Source: Actinomycetota bacterium
GTDB lineage: Bacteria; Actinomycetota; Actinomycetes; Propionibacteriales; Propionibacteriaceae
Assembly (NCBI GenBank): GCA_020161755.1
Contig: JAIUOS010000036.1
Span: 1-35,312 of the forward strand
DNA length: 35,312 bases
Direction: 5' to 3'
Under the pieces are notes generated by a model. That model ran no database searches. It was not told where the DNA came from and saw only the letters and a list, made by a program, of their open reading frames with translations. Shown piece by piece: positions 13,499 to 35,032 of the stretch; positions within the stretch are counted from its first letter, which is position 1, and the number at the start of each line of letters is the position of its first letter. The translations under genes were made by a program, and so were the position numbers.

Positions 13499-15541
13499 GT
13501 GGACAACAAGACCAAGTACCTGGTCATCGCCCTGGCCGTGACTCTGGTTGTGGGGATCGCAGTGGTGCCTCTGATCGTGATCATGGCGACCGCGTCGCTG
13601 ATGGTTCCCTCCACCATCGACCGATGCCAAGCCACCTCGCTCGACCCCAATGGCGTCGGGATCGGCGGGGCCGGCTACACGGTGATGAGCTACAACATCA
13701 AGCACGCCAAAGCGAGCGCAAAGTCAGCCGGCATGTCCGCACACACCAGGGACTACAAGTGGTCCAACCGCGGCCCGGTGGTCGCGCAGTACATCGCCAA
13801 TGTCAACCCTGACCTACTCGGGTTGCAGGAAGTCTCGAAGGTCCCGGGCAGCGCGTCCCGGCAGCTCGAAGTGATCGAGTCAGCCAACCCCGGCTACACC
13901 TGGGTCTACTCCACAACCGCGGACCCGATCGGCTGGCGGGCCTCAGCATTCGCGCTGCTGGACAAGGGCCAGATCCGCCTCAACTACAAGGGCCGTGACG
14001 GTGCCACCCTGAACAGGTTCGCCAACTGGGTGAAGCTGAGGGCCACCAGCGACGGCTCGACTCTGTTCTTCGTCAACCTGCACGCGCAGTTCGCGCAGCT
14101 CAAGGCTCAGGCCAAGGCCCGCAGCGTCGGTTGGACGAGGCTGGTGAAGGGTCTGGCCAAACAGAACCCGGGCAACGGCGATCCCTCGATCATCGTGGGT
14201 GACTTCAACGCCCTCAACAACGAGATCCGAGCCGTGTTCCGCGACCACCTGGTCAAGCTCGGCGCCGCCGGGTTCGTCCAGTCCACCGATACCGCCACGA
14301 CAATCGCACCGATAAGCAGGGTCAACTCCTACAACGGCTGGGGAGACACCATCGGCGGCAAGTTCTACTACAAGGCCATCAACCGCTCGAGCGCAGGCAA
14401 CCACATCGACTACGTGTGGACGGGCGGGGAAGCCTCCGCAACAACCTGGCAGATCTACACCGGCCCCACCGCCACCTGGAAGACGATCAACGGCTCACAG
14501 GTACCGTTCACCGCCGCGGTCGCCTCCGACCACTGGCCCGTCATCGCCCACGTTGTCGTCGGCTCCAGCGCCAGCACCCTCTCCTACACCCAACCCTCCA
14601 CCGCCACCACGGGGTCAGTCGCCGGATGGAACTCCGCCCAGATGCAGATCGCCGCCCAGATCATCGCCGCAGGAAAGTCGATGGGGCTCGACACCTGGAC
14701 CCTCACCGTCGGCGTCATGACCGGCATGGGCGAGTCGAGCCTGCGAAACCTCGACTACGGCGACGCCGCCGGGCCCGACAGCAGGGGAGTGTTCCAGCAA
14801 CGTTCCGGCTGGGGACCCCTCGCCGACAGAATGGACCCCTACAAGGCATCACAGCTGTTCTTCAGGGCCTTGATCAAGGTGCCCGGCTACCACAGCCTCG
14901 CTCCTACCATCGCGGCACACCGGACCCAACGAAACGCCGACCCCTACCACTACGCGAAGTACTGGGACGACGCCGTGAAGGTCGTCGCGGCCATCACCAG
15001 CGACTCCAGCGCCCTCGCCCTGATCGGCGCGGCCGGCGACCAAGCCTGCGCCGGCCAGAGCTACACCGGCGGCACCGGAGCCTGGGCGGACGTCATCCAG
15101 TTCGCCCTCAGTCTGGTCGGCAGATACCCCTACTCATGGGGCGGCGGCGGCCTCAACGGACCCACCGAGGGCTTCGGGGAGGGCGCCGGCATCATCGGCT
15201 TCGACTGCTCCAGCTTCGTCCGCTACGTGGTCTACCAGAAGTCCGGCGCGATCCTGCCCAGAACCTCCCGCGACCAGGCCAAGTTCCTACAGGCTCGAGG
15301 GTTCGTGACTCGCACCAACAGCTACAGCCAACTGCAGGCCGGCGACATCCTGTTCTTCTCCCACGGTGACTCAGCCGGCTCGATCTACCATGTGGCGCTC
15401 GTGGTCGGGCCCGGCGAAATCGTCGAAGAACCCGGTCTGGGACGCTACGTCCAGCACAACAAGATCGCCAACCGGATGCCGGCCGACATCTGGGGCTACG
15501 CCCGATTCGACCTGGCGGCCCTCGCCGGCTCGGCCGCGTGA
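13499..15541 (+). CDS. Fusion: DNase I-like (EEP) nuclease, lytic transglycosylase-like and NlpC/P60 domains
   Basis: 680 residues. Membrane anchor at about 8-32; EEP (endonuclease/exonuclease/phosphatase) domain at about 60-352 with all hallmark residues: N66 (SYNIKH), E111 (GLQEV), H195 (VNLHA), D235 and N237 (GDFN), D304 (HIDYVW), D344/H345 (SDHWPV). A Ser/Thr linker leads to a lysozyme-like transglycosylase domain (about 376-500) with catalytic-type Glu in MGESSLRN (E412) and the GVFQQR motif. The end is an NlpC/P60 peptidase (about 527-670): C570 in FDCSSF, H631 in YHVAL. The last two domains are the usual VirB1/TcpG-type wall hydrolase that opens peptidoglycan for the transfer channel. 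The nuclease domain between anchor and hydrolases is not normally there and would face outward. EEP enzymes may cut DNA or hydrolyse phospholipids. Last gene of the mating-pore operon, GTG start. Confidence 0.88.
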   Translation: MDNKTKYLVIALAVTLVVGIAVVPLIVIMATASLMVPSTIDRCQATSLDPNGVGIGGAGYTVMSYNIKHAKASAKSAGMSAHTRDYKWSNRGPVVAQYIANVNPDLLGLQEVSKVPGSASRQLEVIESANPGYTWVYSTTADPIGWRASAFALLDKGQIRLNYKGRDGATLNRFANWVKLRATSDGSTLFFVNLHAQFAQLKAQAKARSVGWTRLVKGLAKQNPGNGDPSIIVGDFNALNNEIRAVFRDHLVKLGAAGFVQSTDTATTIAPISRVNSYNGWGDTIGGKFYYKAINRSSAGNHIDYVWTGGEASATTWQIYTGPTATWKTINGSQVPFTAAVASDHWPVIAHVVVGSSASTLSYTQPSTATTGSVAGWNSAQMQIAAQIIAAGKSMGLDTWTLTVGVMTGMGESSLRNLDYGDAAGPDSRGVFQQRSGWGPLADRMDPYKASQLFFRALIKVPGYHSLAPTIAAHRTQRNADPYHYAKYWDDAVKVVAAITSDSSALALIGAAGDQACAGQSYTGGTGAWADVIQFALSLVGRYPYSWGGGGLNGPTEGFGEGAGIIGFDCSSFVRYVVYQKSGAILPRTSRDQAKFLQARGFVTRTNSYSQLQAGDILFFSHGDSAGSIYHVALVVGPGEIVEEPGLGRYVQHNKIANRMPADIWGYARFDLAALAGSAA

Positions 15542-24459: not shown

Positions 24460-25158
24460 ATGATCCTCGTCAACCTCGCGAAGAGCTACCCGGCGGTCGC
24501 CCGGCAGCTGGCGGAACTCGGTTACGCCGAGCCCAAGTACGTGAAGGTCGCCGACCTCGCACCGTTGGCGGCAGCGACCGCAGGGGAGTGGTACCGGGTG
24601 TCTGCTCTCGCGATCGAGGAGTTCGGGGACTTGCTCGTCGGTGGCTACGCCGGCGAAGCGGTGTCGGTCTGGAAGATCGTTGGCCACGACCAGCACCCAC
24701 AGAACGGCACCGTGACGTTCCAGCTGAAGCCTGCGCTGGAATGGCACCAGCTGGTCGGCGCACCGCAGCCCGCCGGGCCGTGGAAGCAAGGCGAGGCCCG
24801 CGGAATCCGGTACATCCCCACCGAGGAGTACCAGCGATACCAGGGACGCCCGAACATCAACACGTGGAAAGCCAACACGTGGTCGTCGGCGATCGCCCAT
24901 CACAGCCGGATCGACCGCACCGCCGTCCCCGTGGCCGCGCTCAGCACGCCCGCCGAGATCTCCGTCAACTGGCCGCACCTCGGGCCGATCAAGCTCGCGA
25001 TCACCAGCACCGGCATCTTGGAGATCTCCGTGCCGCACGGGCTGAGAACCCGCACTCTGCACCTGCCCGCCCCAAAGCCAGCCCGCCGCAGAACAACCAC
25101 GAGGAAGACCCCCGGCGCGCGCGGCAAGGAGGCCCCGAAGGCCACACCCGACCAGTAG
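24460..25158 (+). CDS. Hypothetical protein with basic tail
   Basis: 232 residues without signal or membrane segments. Visible blocks are MILVNLAKSYPAVARQLAELG, the strand-rich VSVWKIVGHDQHPQNGTVTF, and INTWKANTWSSAIAHHSR. The last 35 residues are Lys/Arg/Pro-rich (RRRTTTRKTPGARGK), as in nucleic-acid-binding tails. It has its own candidate promoter (24424) and ribosome site. I do not recognise the family; the conserved Trp/His words suggest a folded nucleic-acid-associated domain, but that is inference. Confidence 0.65.
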   Translation: MILVNLAKSYPAVARQLAELGYAEPKYVKVADLAPLAAATAGEWYRVSALAIEEFGDLLVGGYAGEAVSVWKIVGHDQHPQNGTVTFQLKPALEWHQLVGAPQPAGPWKQGEARGIRYIPTEEYQRYQGRPNINTWKANTWSSAIAHHSRIDRTAVPVAALSTPAEISVNWPHLGPIKLAITSTGILEISVPHGLRTRTLHLPAPKPARRRTTTRKTPGARGKEAPKATPDQ

Positions 25159-26181: not shown

Positions 26182-26385
26182 GTGATGTCCCTTTCTGTCG
26201 AGCCCGGGCTGAGAACCCGGATGGGCTGGTGGCCGACGGTCCGGCGGCCTCGCTACCAGTGCGTGCGGGGCTGCTTCTCGGCTGCCGACGGGAAGGTTGA
26301 CGGCACCGCCGCGTTTCGCCGGTTGTCGTCGGCGCTGATCTATGCGGCCGCCCTGCCGGTCAGGCAGAAACGTGTGGCGCCGGGT

Positions 26386-26401
26386 CACCCCGGGAGGGGT
26401 G
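26386..26401 (+). repeat. Structured palindrome, copy 1 (upstream of MoxR operon)
   Basis: CACCCC-GGGA-GGGGTG, followed by CGG. It shares a 15-base run (from A26387 to G26401) with copies 2 and 3. The lower stem of the other copies is not preserved here, so it is the most diverged copy. It lies 62 bases before the ATG at 26464 and is not behind any plus-strand gene, which argues against a simple terminator. Confidence 0.6.
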
Positions 26402-26426
26402 CGGGGAGTGGGAGCGGACCGTCCAC

Positions 26427-26463: not shown

Positions 26464-27564
26464 ATGACAGACCTAGCTACCGCCGTGACCCTGATCGACG
26501 CCTGCGGGCACGCCCACGTACCGGTCCTGTTGCTGAGTGATCCGGGGATGGGCAAGTCGTCGCTGGTGCGGGGCCTCGCCACCAATCAGGGCGTGCTCTG
26601 TGAAACGGTGTTGGGCTCGATCCGGGAACCCGCCGACGTGGGCGGGTTGCCGGTGGTACAGCCTGACGGGACGGTGCTGCTGTCCCCGCCGTCGTGGGCG
26701 CGCAGGCTCGCAGAGGCGGGCAGCGGCTACGTGTTCTTGGACGAGCTGACGACCTGCCCGCCAGCGGTGCAAGCCGCGATGCTGGCGGTCGCACTGGACC
26801 GGGTTGTGGGCGATCTGGTGCTGCCCGCCGGTGTCCGTGTCGTCGCCGGGGCGAACCCCGCAGACCGGGCCGCTGACGGCTGGGAGTTGTCGCCCCCGCT
26901 GGCCAACCGGTTCTGTCACGTCACGTTCGCGCCGACCGTGGACGACTGGTTGGAGGGCATGACGGTCGGATGGGCCGCGCCCCCGGCGTCACGGGCGATC
27001 ACCGCCGACCCGATCCGGGTCGAGATGGTTAAGGCGCTGGTGACAGGCTTCGTCCGCCGCAAGCCTGAGCATCTGCACGCCTTCCCGATGACCGCCGCCG
27101 GGTCGGCTGGGCCGTGGCCGTCGCGGCGGACCTGGGCCATGTTGGCGTCGGCGCTGGCGAACGTGCGAGACGAGGACGCCGCTGCCCGGCAGGCGATCAC
27201 CTTCGGGCTGGTCGGGGAGGGCGTCGGGGTCGAATTCCTGACGTGGTGCGCGGAGGCCGATCTGCCCGATCCCGCGTTGGTGGTGGACAACCCGGCGGTG
27301 GTGGACTGGACGGACCGTCCAGATCGGGTTTGGGCCGTGCTGTCGGCGGTGGTCGGCTGGGCTGCGTCGAAGCGGACGGTGGAGGCGTGGCGGTCTGCGT
27401 GGGGGCCCCTGCTGGCTGCCGCAGAGGGTGGGGCGGTGGACGTGGCTGCTGCTGCCGCCCGGCCATTGAGCGCCTGCCGTCCGGCGTCGGCGCGGATCCC
27501 GGCTGCGGTGCGTGAGCAGTTCTCCCCGGTACTGGCTTCTGCCGGGCTGGGGGTGGCGGGGTGA
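26464..27564 (+). CDS. MoxR-type AAA+ ATPase
   Basis: 366 residues. The AAA+ core is compact: Walker A SDPGMGKSS (25-33), the MoxR-typical GSIREPADVGGLPVVQPDG segment, Walker B YVFLDEL (89-95, D93/E94), sensor-1 like VVAGANPAD and the LANRF arginine-finger motif before residue 155. A helical lid and an unrecognised C-terminal region follow. MoxR ATPases act as chaperones that work with von Willebrand A (vWA) proteins to activate or remodel targets; the next gene is such a partner, overlapping by four bases (GTGA). ATG 26464 follows GGAGAAA. First gene of a five-gene operon. Confidence 0.88.
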   Translation: MTDLATAVTLIDACGHAHVPVLLLSDPGMGKSSLVRGLATNQGVLCETVLGSIREPADVGGLPVVQPDGTVLLSPPSWARRLAEAGSGYVFLDELTTCPPAVQAAMLAVALDRVVGDLVLPAGVRVVAGANPADRAADGWELSPPLANRFCHVTFAPTVDDWLEGMTVGWAAPPASRAITADPIRVEMVKALVTGFVRRKPEHLHAFPMTAAGSAGPWPSRRTWAMLASALANVRDEDAAARQAITFGLVGEGVGVEFLTWCAEADLPDPALVVDNPAVVDWTDRPDRVWAVLSAVVGWAASKRTVEAWRSAWGPLLAAAEGGAVDVAAAAARPLSACRPASARIPAAVREQFSPVLASAGLGVAG

Positions 27565-28811
27565 GCGTGCTGGTGAGGCCTCTGCGGCCTGCTGAGTTGG
27601 AGGCGTTCAGGCTGGCGAGGCTGGTTGCAGCCGAATGGCAGCCGTACCTGATGCACGCCCTGTTCGCCGTCGCGCCGGTTGCCGCCGAAGGGCTGGGCAC
27701 GTTCGCGGTCGATGCGGGGTGGCGGTTGTACCTTGACCCGGCACGGCTGGTGGGGGAGTCCCGCTGGGACGCCCCGCGCGCGGCTGCGGTCCTGCTGCAC
27801 GAGGTCGGCCACCTGATCCGGGACCATGCTGGCCGGGCCGAACTGTTGCCGCTGCCGCGCCACCATTTGGCGTGGAACCTCGCCACGGACGCCGAAATCA
27901 ACGACGACCTGATCGCGGCGTCCGTGCCACTGCCGGACGGGCCGGTCACCCCGGCATCGCTCGGCTGCCCGGACGGGGAACTGGCCGAGACCTACTACGC
28001 GACGCTGCGTCGCGACCATGCCTCCCTGCCCGACGACGGCGGTGAGGGTTGCGGCTCGGGTGCAGGCTGCGGGCCGATACCGGGGGAGCTGCCCGGCACG
28101 ACCGGTCTCGGTGAAGGGGCGGGGGCTCCGGTCGACCCGGCGGAGGCCGACATGGTGCGCCGCCGGGTCGCGCAGGCGGTCCGGGATGCTGCTGGCGGCG
28201 AAGGTCGCAGCACGCTGCCCGCAGGGATGGAACGCTGGGCCAACGGGGTGCTGGCCCCGCCCGTGATCGGCTGGGACCACGTACTGCGCTCAGCTATCCG
28301 GCGGGGCATCGCCGACGTGGCGGGCAGGGTCAACTACACCTACCGGCGACCCGCGCGCCGACAAGTGCCCGGCATCGTCCGCCCCGCGATGCGGGCCGTG
28401 CAGGCCCGGGTGTCGGTGGTGGTGGACACGTCCGGCTCAATGGGCCAGGACGATCTGGACGCCGCACTGACTGAGGTCGGTGGCGTTCTGCGTTCCTCGG
28501 GGGTGGCTCGGGCCTCGCTGCGGCTGGTCAGCTGCGACGCGGCGGCGGCAACGTCCAAGCGGGTCAGGTCCGTGTCGGGCGTGGAACTCGTCGGTGGCGG
28601 CGGGACCGATATGCGGGTGGGGATTGCTGCCGCTGAGGCCGACCGGCCCGCTCCTGACGTGGTGATCGTGCTCACCGATGGCTACACGCCATGGCCGGAT
28701 GAACCGGGCCACGCACAGCTCATCTGTGCGGTGATCCGCGACGGCGACCCGAGCGATACACCGACGTGGGCGACCACCGTGCATATCCCGGTGGGGAGGT
28801 CGGCAGCATGA
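27561..28811 (+). CDS. Metallopeptidase-like / von Willebrand A (DUF2201 type) protein
   Basis: 416 residues. N-terminal peptidase-like domain with a zinc motif LLHEVGHLIRDH (H80, E81, H84) and the downstream ATDAEIND (107-114) that supplies the third ligand in this family. A Gly/acidic linker (about 155-195) leads to the C-terminal vWA domain with a complete MIDAS site: DTSGSMG (289-295), GGGTDM (346-351) and LTDGYTPWP (371-379). The pairing with a MoxR ATPase is a known combination; the metallopeptidase part suggests that activation may release proteolysis. GTG start overlaps the MoxR stop; its own stop overlaps the next ATG. Confidence 0.88.
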   Translation: MSVLVRPLRPAELEAFRLARLVAAEWQPYLMHALFAVAPVAAEGLGTFAVDAGWRLYLDPARLVGESRWDAPRAAAVLLHEVGHLIRDHAGRAELLPLPRHHLAWNLATDAEINDDLIAASVPLPDGPVTPASLGCPDGELAETYYATLRRDHASLPDDGGEGCGSGAGCGPIPGELPGTTGLGEGAGAPVDPAEADMVRRRVAQAVRDAAGGEGRSTLPAGMERWANGVLAPPVIGWDHVLRSAIRRGIADVAGRVNYTYRRPARRQVPGIVRPAMRAVQARVSVVVDTSGSMGQDDLDAALTEVGGVLRSSGVARASLRLVSCDAAAATSKRVRSVSGVELVGGGGTDMRVGIAAAEADRPAPDVVIVLTDGYTPWPDEPGHAQLICAVIRDGDPSDTPTWATTVHIPVGRSAA

Positions 28812-28993
28812 CCGGCGCTTCCTCGGACCTGCACGAGCACGCCCGGCGACTCCTGCTGGGCTCCGACCTGACCGTGGCCGATGCCGTGGCGCTGGCCTCG
28901 GGACAGGTGATCGGGGAGACGCTGTTGGCCTCGGCGCTGCGGGATGGGTGGACCGCCGCCGAGCGGACCGGTGAAGGGGGCCGGTCCCGGTGA
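28808..28993 (+). CDS. 61-residue helical protein of the MoxR operon
   Basis: Short but well supported by position: its ATG overlaps the vWA gene's stop (ATGA) and its stop overlaps the next GTG (GTGA). The sequence is helical (LHEHARRLLLGSDLTVADAV, VIGETLLASALRDGW) with a charged C-terminus. No family recognised. It may be an adaptor or inhibitor between the ATPase/vWA pair and the larger proteins. Confidence 0.65.
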   Translation: MTGASSDLHEHARRLLLGSDLTVADAVALASGQVIGETLLASALRDGWTAAERTGEGGRSR

Positions 28994-30165
28994 GCGTGGA
29001 GTGGTTCGAGTTGGGCCAGCGGCTTCGGGCGTCCACCGGAGAACGCTGCGAGCCCCGGCTGCTCCACGCCCCGATGTTGCTCGGTCCGCGCCCGGTCGCG
29101 GTGCGGGCCGAGCAACACCACGGCGTTGTGACTGTGGCTGCCGCATCCTCCGATGGCCGGGGTGAGGCAGGGGGATTGGACGGGCTGGAACTCCTTGCCG
29201 GGCTGGGTGTCTCGCTGGACGAGTCCGAGCCCGCCACGCTGGTCAGTGACGATCCGGCCACCTTGCGCAACCTGCTCGCACTGGCCCGCACGGTAGCTCC
29301 CGGCAGCGGCGCTGACGCGGTAGCCGGACACATCGGCTGGTGGGCCGAGCGCGCCGACTTCCCCGGCGGGAGCGCGGTGGCCGACGTGGTGGAGGGCTGC
29401 CGCGCTCGCTGGGTCACCGGGCGCGCGCCCTCGGCGGAGCCTGAGCCGGGGCTGTGGCGTGACTGGCTCGGTGTCCGGGACGCCTCGGTGGCCGGTGTGT
29501 TGGCCTTGCACGGGCTGGTCACGGAGGGTGAGCCGCTGCCGTGGCTCGACGCGCTGGCCGACGACGACCGGTACACCTTTGGGCAGGCGCGTAAGTCGCA
29601 CAGCGATGGGTGGGACTGGCGGCGTCCCGACACCACGAGCCGGGCGGCGGTTGGTCTGCGGACGCGGTGCGATGCGGCGGACTTGTACGCCGGGGCACTG
29701 CTCAGCGACCCGCTGTGGCGTGCTCGCGGCGTCCACACCGGCGAGGTCGTCGTCGGTGAGGTTTGCGGCGATCCGCCCGCCGGTCAGCGCGTGGTCGCGG
29801 TTGCCTGTGGCCGGTTGGACGCGAGGGTGCGGGCCGGGGCGGACGTGCTGTGGTGGCTCGGCGCGCCGACCGATGCGCTCCCGGCGGGCGGTGGAACCAC
29901 CGGCACCGTGCGGGCAACGGCGGTGAGCGGGGGCCGGTTGGTGTTGTCGCTCTCGACCCCGTACAACCGGCCCGCGCTCGGTGCCGGGCAAGAGGTGACC
30001 CTGATGCCTGCTGCGCCGAGTGTCCAGCGACAGCGGCGCGGCCAACAGGCCTACCGGAGCTTGCAGTACTCCCGCCGGTCGTGGCTCACCCAAGGTCGCA
30101 CCCCAACGCCCACCCGGCGAACCGTGCCACTGGACGTGCTGCTGGCCGGTGCTGAGAACGACTGA
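28990..30165 (+). CDS. Unrecognised protein of the MoxR-vWA-helicase operon
   Basis: 391 residues without membrane segments or motifs I can assign. Blocks that may be conserved are WFELGQRLRASTGERCEPRL, HIGWWAERADFPGG, LWRDWLGVRDASVAGVLALHG, DDDRYTFGQARKSHSDGWDW, and a beta-rich C-terminal part (TGEVVVGEVCGD, VTLMPAAPSVQRQRRGQQAYRSLQ) ending in a basic stretch. The C-terminal part with its nucleic-acid-friendly charge could be an OB- or SH3-like fold. GTG start overlaps the upstream stop; the helicase gene follows 12 bases later. It may be the specificity or target protein of the system. Confidence 0.7.
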   Translation: MSVEWFELGQRLRASTGERCEPRLLHAPMLLGPRPVAVRAEQHHGVVTVAAASSDGRGEAGGLDGLELLAGLGVSLDESEPATLVSDDPATLRNLLALARTVAPGSGADAVAGHIGWWAERADFPGGSAVADVVEGCRARWVTGRAPSAEPEPGLWRDWLGVRDASVAGVLALHGLVTEGEPLPWLDALADDDRYTFGQARKSHSDGWDWRRPDTTSRAAVGLRTRCDAADLYAGALLSDPLWRARGVHTGEVVVGEVCGDPPAGQRVVAVACGRLDARVRAGADVLWWLGAPTDALPAGGGTTGTVRATAVSGGRLVLSLSTPYNRPALGAGQEVTLMPAAPSVQRQRRGQQAYRSLQYSRRSWLTQGRTPTPTRRTVPLDVLLAGAEND

Positions 30166-30177
30166 AAGGACACGACG

Positions 30178-31494
30178 TTGCGCACCATTCCCTCGGGCTC
30201 TGTGATGGCCTCCACACGCCCAGAATCGCCCGCTGCGGCCCCGGCGGCACCGGAACCGGCAACTTGCCCACACCCGAGCCTCGGCGTGGGCTGGACCGCC
30301 TCAGCGATCATGGACGACCCCACCACGGCGGGCGTGCTGCACTCGGCATGGTCCGGCGACCCGGCGCTGGTGGTGCCGTCCCCACCCGGCGCGGGCAAGA
30401 CCCGGCTGGTCGTGCTGCTGGCCGCGTCCCTTGCCGAACGGGCCAAGCTCCGCGTCGGAATCGCGGCTCAAACGCGGGACCAGGCCGTTGAGATTGCACG
30501 CCGCCTCGGCGTGCTCGGCCACCCCGCGCTTCTCGCGTGGTCGGCCACCGCACCGGCCCCGGTGTTGGGCGGCGCGGCGCGCACGGCGAAGGGCTGGCAG
30601 GTCCGATTCCCGCCCTCGGGCGGTGGTGTCGTGGTGGCGACCACCGCCCGCTGGCTGGTCAGCGACCCCGGCAAGCTGTCCTGCGACCTCATGGTCGTGG
30701 ACGAGGCGTGGCAGGCCACCTACGCCGATCTGGGCGCTTTGGGCGCGTTCGCGGGCCAGATTGTGTGCGTGGGTGACCCCGGACAGATTGACCCGGTGGT
30801 GACCGGCAGGACGCGCCGCTGGGAGGGCTCAGCAACCGCGCCGCACCTTCCCGCCCCGGAGGCGCTTCTGGCTGCACACGCCGAAGGCGTGTCGGTTGTG
30901 CAGCTTCGCCACACATGGCGGCTCGGGCCGCAGACCACCGCTCTGATCCAGCCGGTGTTCTATCCATCCCTTCCGTTCACGTCGCGCCGTCCTGCTGAGT
31001 ACCTGATCGGCGCGGCAGGCGAGCGGCTGCCGGAGGTCGTGTCCGAGCCCGTTGCAGCGATCGCCGGGCCGGGTGACCCGGCGCTGGTCGGAACCTGTGC
31101 CCGGCTGGCGCGTGATCTGTTGGGCCGCACAATCGTCACCACCGATGCGTCCCGGCCCGTTGAGGCCACTGATCTGGCCGTGGTCACCCCGCACGTCGGG
31201 CAAGCGGCGGCGGTGCAAGCGCTTCTGGCCGATCTGCCCGACGTGCTGGTTGGGACGGCCAACCAGTTGCAGGGGCTGGAACGGCCCGCCGTTGTCGCCC
31301 TCCACCCGCTCGCGGGCTACCGCGACCCTTCGGGATTCGCGACCGATCTTGGCCGGGCGTGCGTCATGCTCTCGCGCCACCGGGCGCACCTGATCGTGGT
31401 CACCGACACCGCGAGTCTCGACGTGCTGGCCGGTCCCGATCCGACTCCCGCCGTGACGGCTCACCGTGCGCTGCTGGAAGCGCTGGCGGGCTGA
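30178..31494 (+). CDS. Superfamily 1 helicase-like ATPase
   Basis: 438 residues, compact. Motif I PSPPGAGKT (67-75), motif II VVDEAWQ (173-179; DEAW instead of DEAQ/DEED), motif III VGDPGQIDPV (198-207), motif IV-like LRHTWRLG (243-250), motif V GTANQLQGLE (359-368), motif VI VMLSRHRAHL (396-405). This is the Upf1/Dna2-like SF1 pattern without large insertions, so a minimal motor on DNA or RNA. The first 35 residues are a Pro/Ala leader. It starts at TTG 30178 with AAAGGA seven bases upstream and is the last gene of the operon. A structured palindrome follows at 31519. Confidence 0.82.
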   Translation: MRTIPSGSVMASTRPESPAAAPAAPEPATCPHPSLGVGWTASAIMDDPTTAGVLHSAWSGDPALVVPSPPGAGKTRLVVLLAASLAERAKLRVGIAAQTRDQAVEIARRLGVLGHPALLAWSATAPAPVLGGAARTAKGWQVRFPPSGGGVVVATTARWLVSDPGKLSCDLMVVDEAWQATYADLGALGAFAGQIVCVGDPGQIDPVVTGRTRRWEGSATAPHLPAPEALLAAHAEGVSVVQLRHTWRLGPQTTALIQPVFYPSLPFTSRRPAEYLIGAAGERLPEVVSEPVAAIAGPGDPALVGTCARLARDLLGRTIVTTDASRPVEATDLAVVTPHVGQAAAVQALLADLPDVLVGTANQLQGLERPAVVALHPLAGYRDPSGFATDLGRACVMLSRHRAHLIVVTDTASLDVLAGPDPTPAVTAHRALLEALAG

Positions 31495-31518: not shown

Positions 31519-31557
31519 GAGGGCTCCGCGCCACCCCGGGAGGGGTGCGGAGCCCTC
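31519..31557 (+). repeat. Structured palindrome, copy 2 (between helicase gene and dprA)
   Basis: Lower stem 31519-31529 pairs with 31547-31557 (11 perfect pairs; GGCTCC with GGAGCC inside). A three-base bulge GCC follows on the 5' side, then upper stem ACCCC / GGGGT with loop GGGA. It lies 67 bases before the ATG at 31625. The upper part is identical to copy 3 and the lower stem differs in sequence but keeps pairing, a sign of selection on structure. It may terminate the helicase operon, control dprA, or both. Confidence 0.65.
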
Positions 31558-31624: not shown

Positions 31625-32524
31625 ATGAGCGCGAACAGGAGTGAGGCCAGCAGCGACCGGGTGTCGCGGATGTGCCTGGCCGCGGTGGCGGAGCCGGGCG
31701 ATCCTGGGATCGCTGCGGCGGTCGCAGCCAACGGGGCGTCGAAGGTGTGGGCGGACCTGGCCGGCGCGTCCGGCGAGGGTGCGATCGCTGCACGCGCGCG
31801 GCGACTCGACCCCCGGGACCTGGTCACCCGGACGCGCGCTGCTGGCCTGCGGTTCCTGATCCCCGGGGACGACGACTGGCCAGCTCGGCTGGCCGACCTG
31901 GCGGGATGCGAACCGATCCACAACCTGACCGGCGACCCGCTGGGCCTGTGGGTGGCGGGCCGCGGAAGCCTCGGCGAACTCACTGCCTCATCGATCGCCA
32001 TGGTCGGCTCGCGGGCCTCGAGCGCCTATGGCGACAAGGTGGCCGCCGACATCGCCGCTGGGCTGTCCGCCAGCGGCCGCTGCGTCCTGTCCGGCGGCGG
32101 GTACGGAATCGACGCGGCCGCCCACAGAGGATGCCTGTCAGGGCCCACCGCGACGGTGGCCGTCCTGGCCGGCGGCGCCGACATCCCCTACCCGTCGGGG
32201 CATCATCCGCTGTTCGAACGGATCGCCGAACGCGGCGTCCTGGTCAGCGAACTCGCCCCCGGCGAGCACCCCACGAGGATCCGGTTCCTGGCGAGGAGCC
32301 GACTGATCGCAGCCATAGCCCGCGGCACCGTCCTGGTGGAGGCCGCCGCCCGCTCGGGCGCATGCAACACCGTGACCTGGGCCAACGCCCTGGGGCGGAC
32401 CGTGATGGCGGTACCGGGCCCGGTCACCAGCTGCACATCGCTGACCCCCCACCGCCTGATCCGCGGCGGCGAGGCCGTACTGGTTACCGGCGCCGCGGAC
32501 GTCCTCGACCTGGTGGGCGGGTAA
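31625..32524 (+). CDS. dprA: DNA-processing protein DprA
   Basis: 299 residues with the DprA Rossmann core intact: VGSRASSAYG (127-136), SGGGYGIDAAAHRG (156-169), VLAGGADIPYPSGH (180-193), GVLVSELAPG (204-213), FLARSRLIAA (221-230; most family members have RNR instead of RSR), GTVLVEAAARSG (234-245), VMAVPGPVTS (260-269). DprA loads RecA on incoming single-stranded DNA, which would protect or establish a transferred element. The C-terminal winged helix of many DprA proteins is absent; the chain ends after the core. ATG 31625 follows AAGGGAG. Confidence 0.92.
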   Translation: MSANRSEASSDRVSRMCLAAVAEPGDPGIAAAVAANGASKVWADLAGASGEGAIAARARRLDPRDLVTRTRAAGLRFLIPGDDDWPARLADLAGCEPIHNLTGDPLGLWVAGRGSLGELTASSIAMVGSRASSAYGDKVAADIAAGLSASGRCVLSGGGYGIDAAAHRGCLSGPTATVAVLAGGADIPYPSGHHPLFERIAERGVLVSELAPGEHPTRIRFLARSRLIAAIARGTVLVEAAARSGACNTVTWANALGRTVMAVPGPVTSCTSLTPHRLIRGGEAVLVTGAADVLDLVGG

Positions 32525-32566: not shown

Positions 32567-32607
32567 CGAGGCTTCCGCGCCACCCCGGGAGGGGTGCGGG
32601 AGCCTCG
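32567..32607 (+). repeat. Structured palindrome, copy 3 (upstream of the 32660 gene)
   Basis: Lower stem 32567-32578 pairs with 32596-32607 (12 pairs, one G-T), then the same three-base bulge GCC, upper stem ACCCC / GGGGT and GGGA loop as copy 2. It lies 52 bases before the ATG at 32660 and 42 bases after the dprA stop. Confidence 0.65.
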
Positions 32608-33791: not shown

Positions 33792-34259
33792 ATGGCAAGC
33801 ACTGAGGAGGAGCAGCGGCCCATTCGGGTGGTCTTCTGCGGCCGGCGGATGCTCGGTGATGGCAGGCTCGCGCACGTCTTCGCCCCGGAGGCGTCTCCCA
33901 CGTCCGAAGGCGCCTTCCGGTTCCGAAAGGGGGGCTGGGTCGTGGGAGGCATCTACGAGGCGAACGGCACCGTCGTCGACGGGGTGCTCGCTCGTCTGTC
34001 TCGCCCGGGCTCCTGGACGGGGGAGCGTGTAGACCAGGCCCAAGCCGCAGCCTGGGAGCTGCTCGATCGCCACGCCCAGCAAACCGACGCAGCTCGCCGC
34101 GCGGAGGACCGTGCAAAGCGTTCACCGGCCTACCAGGGCGTGATCGCGGCGGCCAGCCCGGTCATGGCGAACGCTCACACCTACCGGGATGCCGAACGCA
34201 TCGCAGATGCGCTCAAGTGGGCCCTCCTCGAAGAGTGGAACAAGCAGGCCCGCAGGTGA
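33792..34259 (+). CDS. Hypothetical protein upstream of the Mom-like gene
   Basis: 155 residues. The first 75 look like a small beta domain (IRVVFCGRRMLGDGRLAHVF, FRFRKGGWVVGGIYEANGTVV). The rest is helical and charged (QAQAAAWELLDRHAQQTDAARRAEDRA, AYQGVIAAASPVMANAHTYRDAE, ALKWALLEEWNKQ). GAGAGGAGAA precedes the ATG. Its TGA overlaps the GTG of the next gene, so it is probably co-translated with the Mom-like protein and may help it. Family not recognised. Confidence 0.65.
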   Translation: MASTEEEQRPIRVVFCGRRMLGDGRLAHVFAPEASPTSEGAFRFRKGGWVVGGIYEANGTVVDGVLARLSRPGSWTGERVDQAQAAAWELLDRHAQQTDAARRAEDRAKRSPAYQGVIAAASPVMANAHTYRDAERIADALKWALLEEWNKQARR

Positions 34260-35032
34260 GCATGGACATGCCCTGCCAGCGCTGGAACTCGGGGCGGCAC
34301 TCGTGGCGCCACCTCCGCGAGGGTGGCTTCGACCGCCGGCGCTACCAGGTGACGGAGCTGGCCGAAGCCGACGCGAAAGCCTTCTGCGCCGCCCACCACT
34401 ACGCCGGCGCGAGCTATCCGGCTGCGCTACGCCGATACGGCCTCATCGACCGGGCAGACGGTCGCTTGGTCGGCGTGGCTGTCATCGGCGCGCCAGTCAG
34501 TTCAAAGGTCCTCACGCGGCCTCTGCCGACTCTGGAGCCCTACCGGGAGAGCGTCGAGCTGTCGCGTTTCGTGCTCCTCGACGAGTGCCCGGCCAACACG
34601 CATGGCATCAGGGGAGTGGGCAGCTTCGCCGACCCCGTGCCTCGCTGGACCGCGGCCGGCGTCCTGATCAAGCCGGGACACTTCGGCATCATCTACCAAG
34701 CATGCGGCGCCGACTTCACCGGCCGCGGAACCGCTCGATCCCTGGTCATGCTCCCCGACGGGACGGTGCTGAATGCCCGGGCCGCCCAGAAGGTGCGCAG
34801 CCAAGAGCAGGGCCACCAGTACGTAGAGGGCCGGCTGGAGGCCCTTGGGGCGCGAGGGCGGCGTCCTGAGGAAGACCCGGCGGCGTGGCTACGGGAGGCG
34901 ATCGCGGCGGTCGGCGCCGGCCGCGTCCAGCACCCTGGTGCCTTTCGGTACGTGTTCAGGCTCGACCGTCCTCGGGACCGGGTACCCCTCGGCCTGCCCC
35001 CACGCGAGTATCCGAAGCCGGTACATAGCTGA
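34256..35032 (+). CDS. Mom-like (GNAT-fold) DNA modification protein
   Basis: 258 residues. The order of motifs resembles phage Mu Mom and its actinophage relatives: HHYAGASYPAALRRYGL (48-63), LVGVAVIGAP (71-80), VELSRFVLLDECPANT (100-115), GSFADPVPRW (122-131), PGHFGIIYQACGADFTGRGT (140-159), MLPDGTVLNARAAQKV (165-180), and a final HPGAFRYVF. Mom converts adenine in DNA to N6-methylcarbamoyl-adenine and shields phage DNA from restriction. Between NT (115) and GSFADP the chain seems short: relatives that I recall have a longer segment with a SWFLARAF-like helix, so part of the acyl-CoA site may be missing. GTG 34256 (GTGA overlap) or ATG 34262 can be the start. Confidence 0.65.
   Translation: MSMDMPCQRWNSGRHSWRHLREGGFDRRRYQVTELAEADAKAFCAAHHYAGASYPAALRRYGLIDRADGRLVGVAVIGAPVSSKVLTRPLPTLEPYRESVELSRFVLLDECPANTHGIRGVGSFADPVPRWTAAGVLIKPGHFGIIYQACGADFTGRGTARSLVMLPDGTVLNARAAQKVRSQEQGHQYVEGRLEALGARGRRPEEDPAAWLREAIAAVGAGRVQHPGAFRYVFRLDRPRDRVPLGLPPREYPKPVHS

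Follow-up and report, generated by a model that had tools for sequence, protein, structure and literature searches.

The window, i.e. the whole stretch of DNA analysed here, is one complete contig (C36, 35,312 bases) from the genome of a bacterium of the Propionibacteriaceae (Actinomycetota), assembled as 4.08 Mb in 61 contigs. Five consecutive genes of this contig, g1 to g5 (Table 1), appear to code for two things, a pair of proteins acting as a protein-pulling protease, and a DNA or RNA helicase that is split into two proteins. Successive genes from g1 to g4 overlap by 4 bases and 12 bases separate g4 from g5, an arrangement already given in a preliminary description of this DNA and verified here for all coordinates. 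Gene order, sequence domains and motifs, predicted folds and linkage to plasmids, as reported below, were established by computation. The ratio of nonsynonymous to synonymous substitution rates (dN/dS, NG86 method) ranged from 0.03 to 0.43 in all 48 estimates (12 non-independent pairs for each of 4 genes), indicating purifying selection, so that the gene set is not a product of chance. Scans of the window for tRNAs and with Rfam, at the gathering threshold, gave no match.

Table 1. The five-gene set and its downstream flank, in positions of the window (aa, amino acids; SF1B, helicase superfamily 1B; MIDAS, metal ion-dependent adhesion site).
Feature	Position	Strand	Description
g1	26464-27564	+	366 aa; MoxR-type AAA+ ATPase (AAA_5); Walker A K31 at 26554-26556
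g2	27561-28811	+	416 aa; DUF2201_N zinc metallopeptidase-like and DUF2201 vWA-like; HEVGH at 27798-27812; MIDAS DTSGS at 28425-28439
g3	28808-28993	+	61 aa small protein; stop overlaps g4 start by 4 bases
g4	28990-30165	+	391 aa; putative accessory half of a split SF1B helicase, from the model
g4 residues 1-182	28990-29535	+	RNase H-like fold resembling DEDD exonuclease domains, without conserved catalytic acids
g4 residues ~214-375	29629-30114	+	stalk helices and 1B-like barrel, as in Upf1-like helicases
g4 C-terminal tail	30115-30153	+	conserved motif RRxVPLDVLIAGA, the tail otherwise modelled with low confidence; candidate docking peptide
g5	30178-31494	+	438 aa, TTG start; SF1B helicase motor, RecA1 and RecA2 only; Walker A K74
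hairpin after g5	31519-31557	+	strong fold, z -4.0; operon end, putative terminator
dprA	31625-32524		DprA-like gene, next after g5 (Pfam search and sequence)

The first two genes form a recognisable pair. Pfam AAA_5 matches g1 (E 2.4e-5), as does the PHROGs family phrog_1297 over most of its length (E 2e-51). In g2, matches were found to DUF2201_N, a putative metallopeptidase (1.1e-29), to the vWA-like DUF2201 (4.3e-15) and, over most of the length, to phrog_1314, which is labelled there as an HNH endonuclease. A MoxR-type AAA+ gene therefore adjoins a vWA gene, with a metallopeptidase bearing HExxH fused N-terminally to the vWA part. The observation that the vWA protein itself has a full zinc peptidase motif, HEVGH, was borne out, as HExxH is retained in 28 of 28 g2 rows in the alignment of relatives. 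The MIDAS motif DTSxS is present in 26 of these rows and gapped in two from Rhodococcus fascians; in the R. fascians loci L019 and L031, g2 lacks the MIDAS segment and the remaining gene is conserved. The residues singled out earlier in the other proteins, like E81 of the g2 motif, are all present and conserved in relatives, K31 of g1 and K74 of g5 being, together with D175-E176 of g5, among columns at least 95% conserved. Taken alone, g2 found one phage match at E≤1e-5, in Thermus phage phiFa (30%). MoxR rings and vWA partners are protein-remodelling pairs, as established for some of them; to our knowledge such pairs are widespread and few have known substrates. For DUF2201, no function is stated in the titles or abstract openings of four papers.

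The putative helicase motor is g5. It matches Pfam AAA_30/AAA_12, and its profile, an independent line of evidence from sequence, found IGHMBP2 (1.4e-10), Setx (7.6e-9), Dna2 (1.7e-6) and Upf1 (2.5e-5), as well as RecD (5e-4). The protein begins at the motor, and no stalk and 1B barrel were found in the same chain. Its 1C region is shortened relative to IGHMBP2, with ~56 positions fewer between aligned blocks. Every other spacing in g5 is as short as in IGHMBP2 or shorter, which leaves no space for a 1B domain. A stalk/1B-like region was found in g4 instead, so that the complete feature would be present only in trans. The two proteins cover IGHMBP2 in a complementary manner, residues 7-179 by g4 and 195-616 by g5, although the first g5 block is weak alone.

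The preliminary description had proposed profile searches and structure prediction for g3 and g4. Neither protein has a Pfam match at E≤1 or anything meaningful in NCBIfam, PADLOC or PHROGs, and the g4 profile has no match at E≤1 among PDB sequences; the structure model of g4, however, was informative. It was obtained with high confidence (predicted local distance difference test, pLDDT, 89.8; predicted template modelling score, pTM, 0.85) and consists of an RNase H-like domain, then a stalk, then a 1B-like barrel. Its first-ranked PDB matches with Foldseek are Sen1, Setx and Upf1; after realignment of the top 1000, Setx, Sen1 and IGHMBP2 rank first. Among the folds listed in two PDB structure comparisons, residues 1-182 match RNase H-like ones. 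The four conserved catalytic acids of DEDD/DnaQ-type exonucleases are not found in this domain: it has no invariant D or E, the best acidic columns are 150 and 7 (both 96% D/E) and 120 (85%), and none of the top 14 lies within strand 35-43, which we take to be the expected site of the first DEDD motif. The reading of g4 as an active exonuclease is rejected on this ground, and the degenerate domain probably grips nucleic acid. The last 30 residues are the lowest-confidence part of the model (pLDDT ~37-61). They hold a conserved motif, present also in remote homologues, and conservation in so poorly modelled a region suggests a docking peptide.

Taken together, it is probable that g4 and g5 are two parts of one Upf1/Dna2-like SF1B helicase, whose binding to each other we infer from these folds. 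The motor in g5 and the stalk and 1B-like barrel in g4 resemble Upf1, Sen1/Setx, IGHMBP2 and Dna2. In Dna2, as described in the cited section, the order is nuclease fold, barrel-stalk, motor (PMC4716839), and the same succession of nuclease fold, barrel and motor runs from g4 to g5. Unlike in Upf1-like helicases and Dna2, it is split here over two genes, and unlike in Dna2, the PD-(D/E)XK nuclease appears to be replaced by an RNase H-like domain without conserved acids. No split Upf1/Dna2-type helicase appears in the titles and abstract openings of the literature searched. We know of no earlier split of this kind in the family. The earlier view that a helicase and a separate protein of no known type complete the set thus stands for the nucleic-acid module and fails for g4, which appears to be the missing helicase part; the proposal that either of them is a sensor of nucleic acid is unsupported for the same reason.

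The small protein g3 is tightly tied to g4. In 38 of 38 loci (30 distinct g3 sequences), exactly 4 bases are shared by the g3 stop and the g4 start, as ATGA in 19 and GTGA in 19, a count that leaves aside five loci with a missing or unaligned g4 start (L027, L045, L051, L054, L055). The proteins share a pattern of roughly ..hA..hL.GT......A..ALR.GW..A. Weak NCBIfam matches to beta-lactamases lie far under their cut-offs and were rejected. We propose, tentatively, that g3 is a translationally coupled partner in the helicase module.

Two further arrangements bear on the division of the set. In Euzebya, g3-g4-g5 (65, 448 and 451 aa, with 4-base overlaps) make up a separate operon, 10 kb away from g1-g2, and thereby show two modules; a Streptomyces SAT1 plasmid has g1-g2 without g4-g5. 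Five Arthrobacter-group plasmids (L017, L018, L126, L127, L128) carry a rearranged relative of the system. Here a remote g4 homologue of 365-368 aa, with the same C-terminal VPLDV.LAGA motif, is divergent to g5, followed by variable genes, g2, a conserved ~254 aa protein and, as the second gene downstream of g2 in all five, an RNase HI-like protein; a MoxR-like gene is present in 3 of the 5 stretches. Compared with the g4 profile, a single Arthrobacter protein gave a weak match (probability 2.7) and only a five-row profile a credible one (probability 67, E 5e-5); in a rerun the score was 37.8, versus a maximum of 26.6 in 60 column-shuffled controls. The catalytic residues of the RNase HI-like protein look intact by eye in one of the plasmids. 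In annotated regions of the window's own subtype, no RNase H gene is found in the set.

How far the set is conserved was examined in plasmids, genomes and phages. By tblastn against 72,556 plasmid records, g4 was found in 45, g2 in 65 and g5 in 49, mainly in Rhodococcus and mycobacteria and, for g4, also in Xylanimonas, Cellulosimicrobium and Euzebya. All of the best 40 of the 45 g4 records are also among the listed g2 records (60 of 65), and 35 of them among the listed g5 records (40 of 49). The order g1-g2-g3-g4-g5 is kept in nine plasmid regions (L010-L013, L019-L023); insertion sequences interrupt the set in L022, and g1 is frameshifted in pBD2. A g4-profile scan of GTDB species genomes yielded 32 loci, with near-duplicates (L030-L032, L041/L042, L035/L037/L049). 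In 27 of them g1, g2, g4 and g5 were all found, arranged in that order on the same strand; of the other five, three (L027, L049, L055) run into a contig end and two (L040, L046) have no recognisable g1. Loss of the order beyond the MoxR-vWA pair, named beforehand as a ground for dropping the idea of a joint system, is therefore not what we observe, given also the g3 overlap in 38 of 38 loci. The other such ground, homologues serving as housekeeping genes in core genomes, fares no better: the g4 profile matched 1 of 396 Actinomycetota genomes, the window's own, in a scan that scored only a handful of initial candidates for each genome (4 in those listed), and a housekeeping operon is rejected. 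Among 60 near relatives, own genome included, 6 matched, two of them weakly and partially. A phage-borne set is likewise rejected: a search of 50,697 phage records gave no match to g4, and in viral contigs (IMG/VR) 45 pattern matches were obtained, of which none was confirmed. No paper was recognised as describing this gene combination, as far as titles and abstracts tell.

Some loci are visibly decaying. In R. erythropolis pR09L01 and R. qingshengii pLP1 (L137, L138), two of five Rhodococcus g4 records without a g5 match, g1 is in pieces and only residues 38-70 of g5 remain, with g2, g3 and g4 still open; g1 and g5 being broken together is expected of a joint function. In L050, on an Actinopolymorpha chromosome and one of the 27 ordered loci, g4 is in pieces and g5 truncated, and a split VirB4 lies ~70-80 kb away, which fits an integrated element in decay. 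The contig L055, 3.4 kb long and labelled Chloroflexota, holds the end of g4 and a g5 at 52% identity, possibly through mis-binning.

The window has a counterpart in a same-genus relative, a Propionicimonas assembly (G008, identical to L024 and G454), in which a VirB4 block, an FtsK-like gene, the five-gene cassette, DprA and others occur in the same order. The proteins most alike are g1 (80%), g2 (79%) and g5 (76%), followed by g4 and VirB4 (68% each), the product of 24460-25158 (67%), g3 (61%) and, at 35-58%, the remaining proteins of the transfer block. Of 32 open reading frames (ORFs) of the window tested, 12 have no match in the relative's 75,589-base contig, including GmrSD, Mom and AraC. 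The remainder of the relative's element is collinear with C26, a second contig (60 kb) of the window's genome, which carries ParA and T2SSE/T2SSF genes; we infer a plasmid of roughly 95 kb or more, present as C36 and C26.

Linkage to one plasmid family was then assessed through VirB4. Among the best 60 of 304 VirB4 matches, 27 of the 32 closest plasmid records (at least 41% identity) hold g4, versus none of the next 28; many records are near-copies, and the 27 are not independent events. Of 35 genomes or records that carry the cassette or a related set, 32 contain VirB4; among plasmids, the two share a record in 9 of 11, with a weak VirB4 match (26% identity) in two of the nine. In a sample of 28 chosen records, 15 with RpoB, pairwise identities of four cassette proteins correlated at r 0.95-0.97 among themselves, at 0.62-0.67 with VirB4 (26-28 records, permutation p 0.0005) and at 0.32-0.53 with host RpoB (14-15 genomes, p 0.0005-0.0065); for VirB4 versus RpoB, r was 0.16 (p 0.13). 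Partial correlations in the RpoB subset were 0.46-0.52 with VirB4 and 0.28-0.52 with RpoB. This means that the four genes have been inherited as one block, whose movement followed in part the plasmid family and in part the host lineages. As a cargo control, GmrSD was found by tblastn in 214 plasmid records, 4 of them Rhodococcus; the 40 listed include two Rhodococcus records, neither among the 45 with g4.

We consider it likely that the set is a backbone component, rather than cargo, in a family of large conjugative plasmids of actinobacteria. The initial assignment as defence cargo is not upheld, given that g1, g2 and g5 are the best conserved proteins, that the restriction, modification and AraC genes are unmatched in the relative, and that the set is concentrated in one VirB4 clade. 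MoxR and vWA genes have been placed in the backbones of the unrelated conjugative elements pCAR1, R478, Rts1, SXT and R391, in the cited section (PMC2642839).

The cassette had also been described as bounded by structured palindromes. Copies do fold strongly after g5 and after dprA (32568-32606, z -4.35), and this part holds; the copy upstream of g1 (26373-26411) has no strong fold (z -0.57), and the border role does not. In the relative, two core matches again lie after g5 and after dprA. Near-identical strong hairpins around CACCCCGGGAGGGGTG end the g5 and dprA genes and occur also at L129:1502 and L129:2583; this core has only five exact copies in the genome, on C36 and C26. Rather than borders of the cassette, the palindromes appear to be hairpins at operon ends. 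The reading as palindrome-bounded defence cargo is rejected, on the unstructured copy before g1, the positions in the relative and its lack of restriction cargo.

What might these five proteins do together? Since the MoxR/peptidase-vWA pair is joined to a helicase, the simplest joint job is protein clearance from nucleic acid. We tentatively favour a five-protein nucleoprotein-remodelling machine of the plasmid backbone, clearing protein blocks from nucleic acid. Judging from the sequences, one module would be the g1 AAA+ ring with g2 as its vWA co-factor carrying the zinc peptidase, and the other g3-g4-g5, in which g5 would be the RecA motor and g4 would supply the stalk and 1B barrel in trans. 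The helicase would track, with the 5'->3' polarity of its family, either on RNA or on single strands of plasmid DNA in the course of transfer, establishment or replication. A protein in its way, bound or covalently linked, would stall it; the vWA-peptidase would then be recruited, MoxR would pull the block apart and the peptidase would cut it. DprA in the window, a related vWA gene of Allomeiothermus with ssb and Rad52-like genes close by, and MoxR-vWA genes in conjugative elements fit the handling of the element's own single strands. A bolder version, to which we give rather little weight, is a dedicated machine removing proteins, covalently linked ones like relaxases or terminal proteins included, from single-stranded plasmid DNA, with the g4 tail docking to the motor or the protease. 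We would take it to be the bacterial plasmid counterpart of the eukaryotic SPRTN-p97-FANCJ route.

Several observations weigh against such a backbone machine. The partial correlation of g4 with the host is larger than that with VirB4, and the remaining five of the 40 g4 records, all Rhodococcus, have no g5 at the threshold, since all 26 Rhodococcus g5 records are among those listed; for these two reasons we lowered our confidence in the backbone assignment slightly. Others point to a defence or conflict system, in which the helicase module would recognise foreign nucleic acid and the MoxR/vWA-peptidase pair would kill or block the cell or the invader. The best PADLOC matches of g5 are MkoC (5e-12) and MkoA (8e-9), which we take to be Mokosh helicases; the N-terminal domain of g4 resembles in fold the exonuclease Cap18, presumably linked to the cyclic oligonucleotide-based antiphage signalling system (CBASS); GmrSD (restriction) and Mom (modification) lie on the same element; and patchy loss within Rhodococcus would also fit. 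MoxR-vWA ternary systems, moreover, are predicted conflict systems in the cited section (PMC7159879). We nevertheless give this reading, a serious rival, less weight, because g4 is so rare in genomes and was confirmed in no phage or viral record, the set is frequent within one VirB4 clade while GmrSD is unmatched in the relative's contig, and g3 and g4 have no Pfam match to any effector domain. Rather than being phage-defence cargo, the machine probably clears obstacles from the plasmid's own nucleic acid.

Somewhat less likely still is a Sen1-like machine on the RNA side, which would clear R-loops or stalled RNA polymerase on the plasmid, the peptidase disposing of polymerase or factors. That Sen1 and Setx are the first-ranked structural matches of g4, and that an RNase HI-like gene stands in the related Arthrobacter-group locus, would agree with it. 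Upf1-like helicases, however, act on RNA and single-stranded DNA in the cited section (PMC11090510), Dna2 has the same domain order, the window's subtype has no RNase H gene in annotated regions, and the RNase H-like domain of g4 lacks conserved acids at the expected place. Least probable is a maturation chaperone, the MoxR-vWA-peptidase trimming or assembling the split helicase or the transfer channel rather than acting on nucleoprotein blocks, for although a virion-processing role was proposed for such pairs in jumbo phages (PMC7824862, cited section), the g4 tail could be a cleavage or docking site and g1-g2 occur without g4-g5 in the SAT1 plasmid, co-occurrence of the five genes argues for joint action.

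Compared with known systems, the nucleoprotein-remodelling machine proposed here has partial likenesses. Mokosh combines a Upf1-like helicase with a phospholipase D (PLD) nuclease; the similarity is confined to the helicase, and no PLD domain is among the Pfam matches of the five proteins. In group 2.2 jumbo phages, a MoxR ATPase also adjoins a vWA protein with an N-terminal metallopeptidase, a chaperone pair; the setting differs, phage and virion versus plasmid backbones, and no helicase partner is mentioned in the cited section (PMC7824862). The vWA-MoxR ternary conflict systems (VMAP/iSTAND/FtsH) share the MoxR and vWA core, third components and actinobacterial hosts (PMC7159879, cited section). 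Unlike there, no VMAP or iSTAND was recognised here, g3 and g4 being without Pfam match and g4 resembling other folds; the further components are helicase parts, and in place of variable effectors the vWA protein has a zincin whose HExxH is intact. CoCoNuT type II/III restriction systems resemble ours by an AAA+ partner, a Upf1-like helicase with a stalk/oligonucleotide-binding (OB) domain and a vWA protein in the operon; their helicase has its stalk in one chain (PMC11090510, cited section). Here g1 is AAA_5/MoxR-like, and no McrB-McrC or coiled-coil gene was recognised among the five proteins. The elements pCAR1 (IncP-7), R478, Rts1, SXT and R391 also keep MoxR and vWA genes, and no helicase set is named in the cited section (PMC2642839).

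Other genes of the element were noted. The Mom-family protein (34217-35032, Pfam E 5e-12) is unmatched in the relative's 75.6 kb contig. Within the transfer block, one ORF (13499-15541) has an endonuclease/exonuclease/phosphatase domain and, C-terminal to it, an NlpC/P60 domain, which strikes us as an unusual fusion. On C26, a RAMP-superfamily protein (L132:15544-17250; Pfam RAMPs, weak, E 9e-4, just under cut-off) adjoins a conserved 235 aa protein, 71% identical to that of the relative. RAMP-annotated genes also precede the cassette by a few kb in pBD2 and pFiD188 (L012:12999-13862; L019:3012-3860), and such plasmid RAMP genes are called type IV-B CRISPR by DefenseFinder in the cited section (PMC12915292). 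The RAMP gene is possibly another backbone gene of this plasmid family.

If the proposed machine exists, its regular helicase partner would give a MoxR-vWA pair a concrete class of substrate, nucleoprotein. A helicase with its family-defining accessory domain in a second gene would, if true, offer the Upf1/Dna2 family a natural separation-of-function system. The plasmid regions annotate these genes as hypothetical, AAA, MoxR or VWA-like only, and g3 as a chemotaxis protein in some mycobacteria. The operon is found on large plasmids of Rhodococcus, Mycobacterium, Cellulosimicrobium and others, and may be a neglected factor in the persistence and spread of these plasmids.

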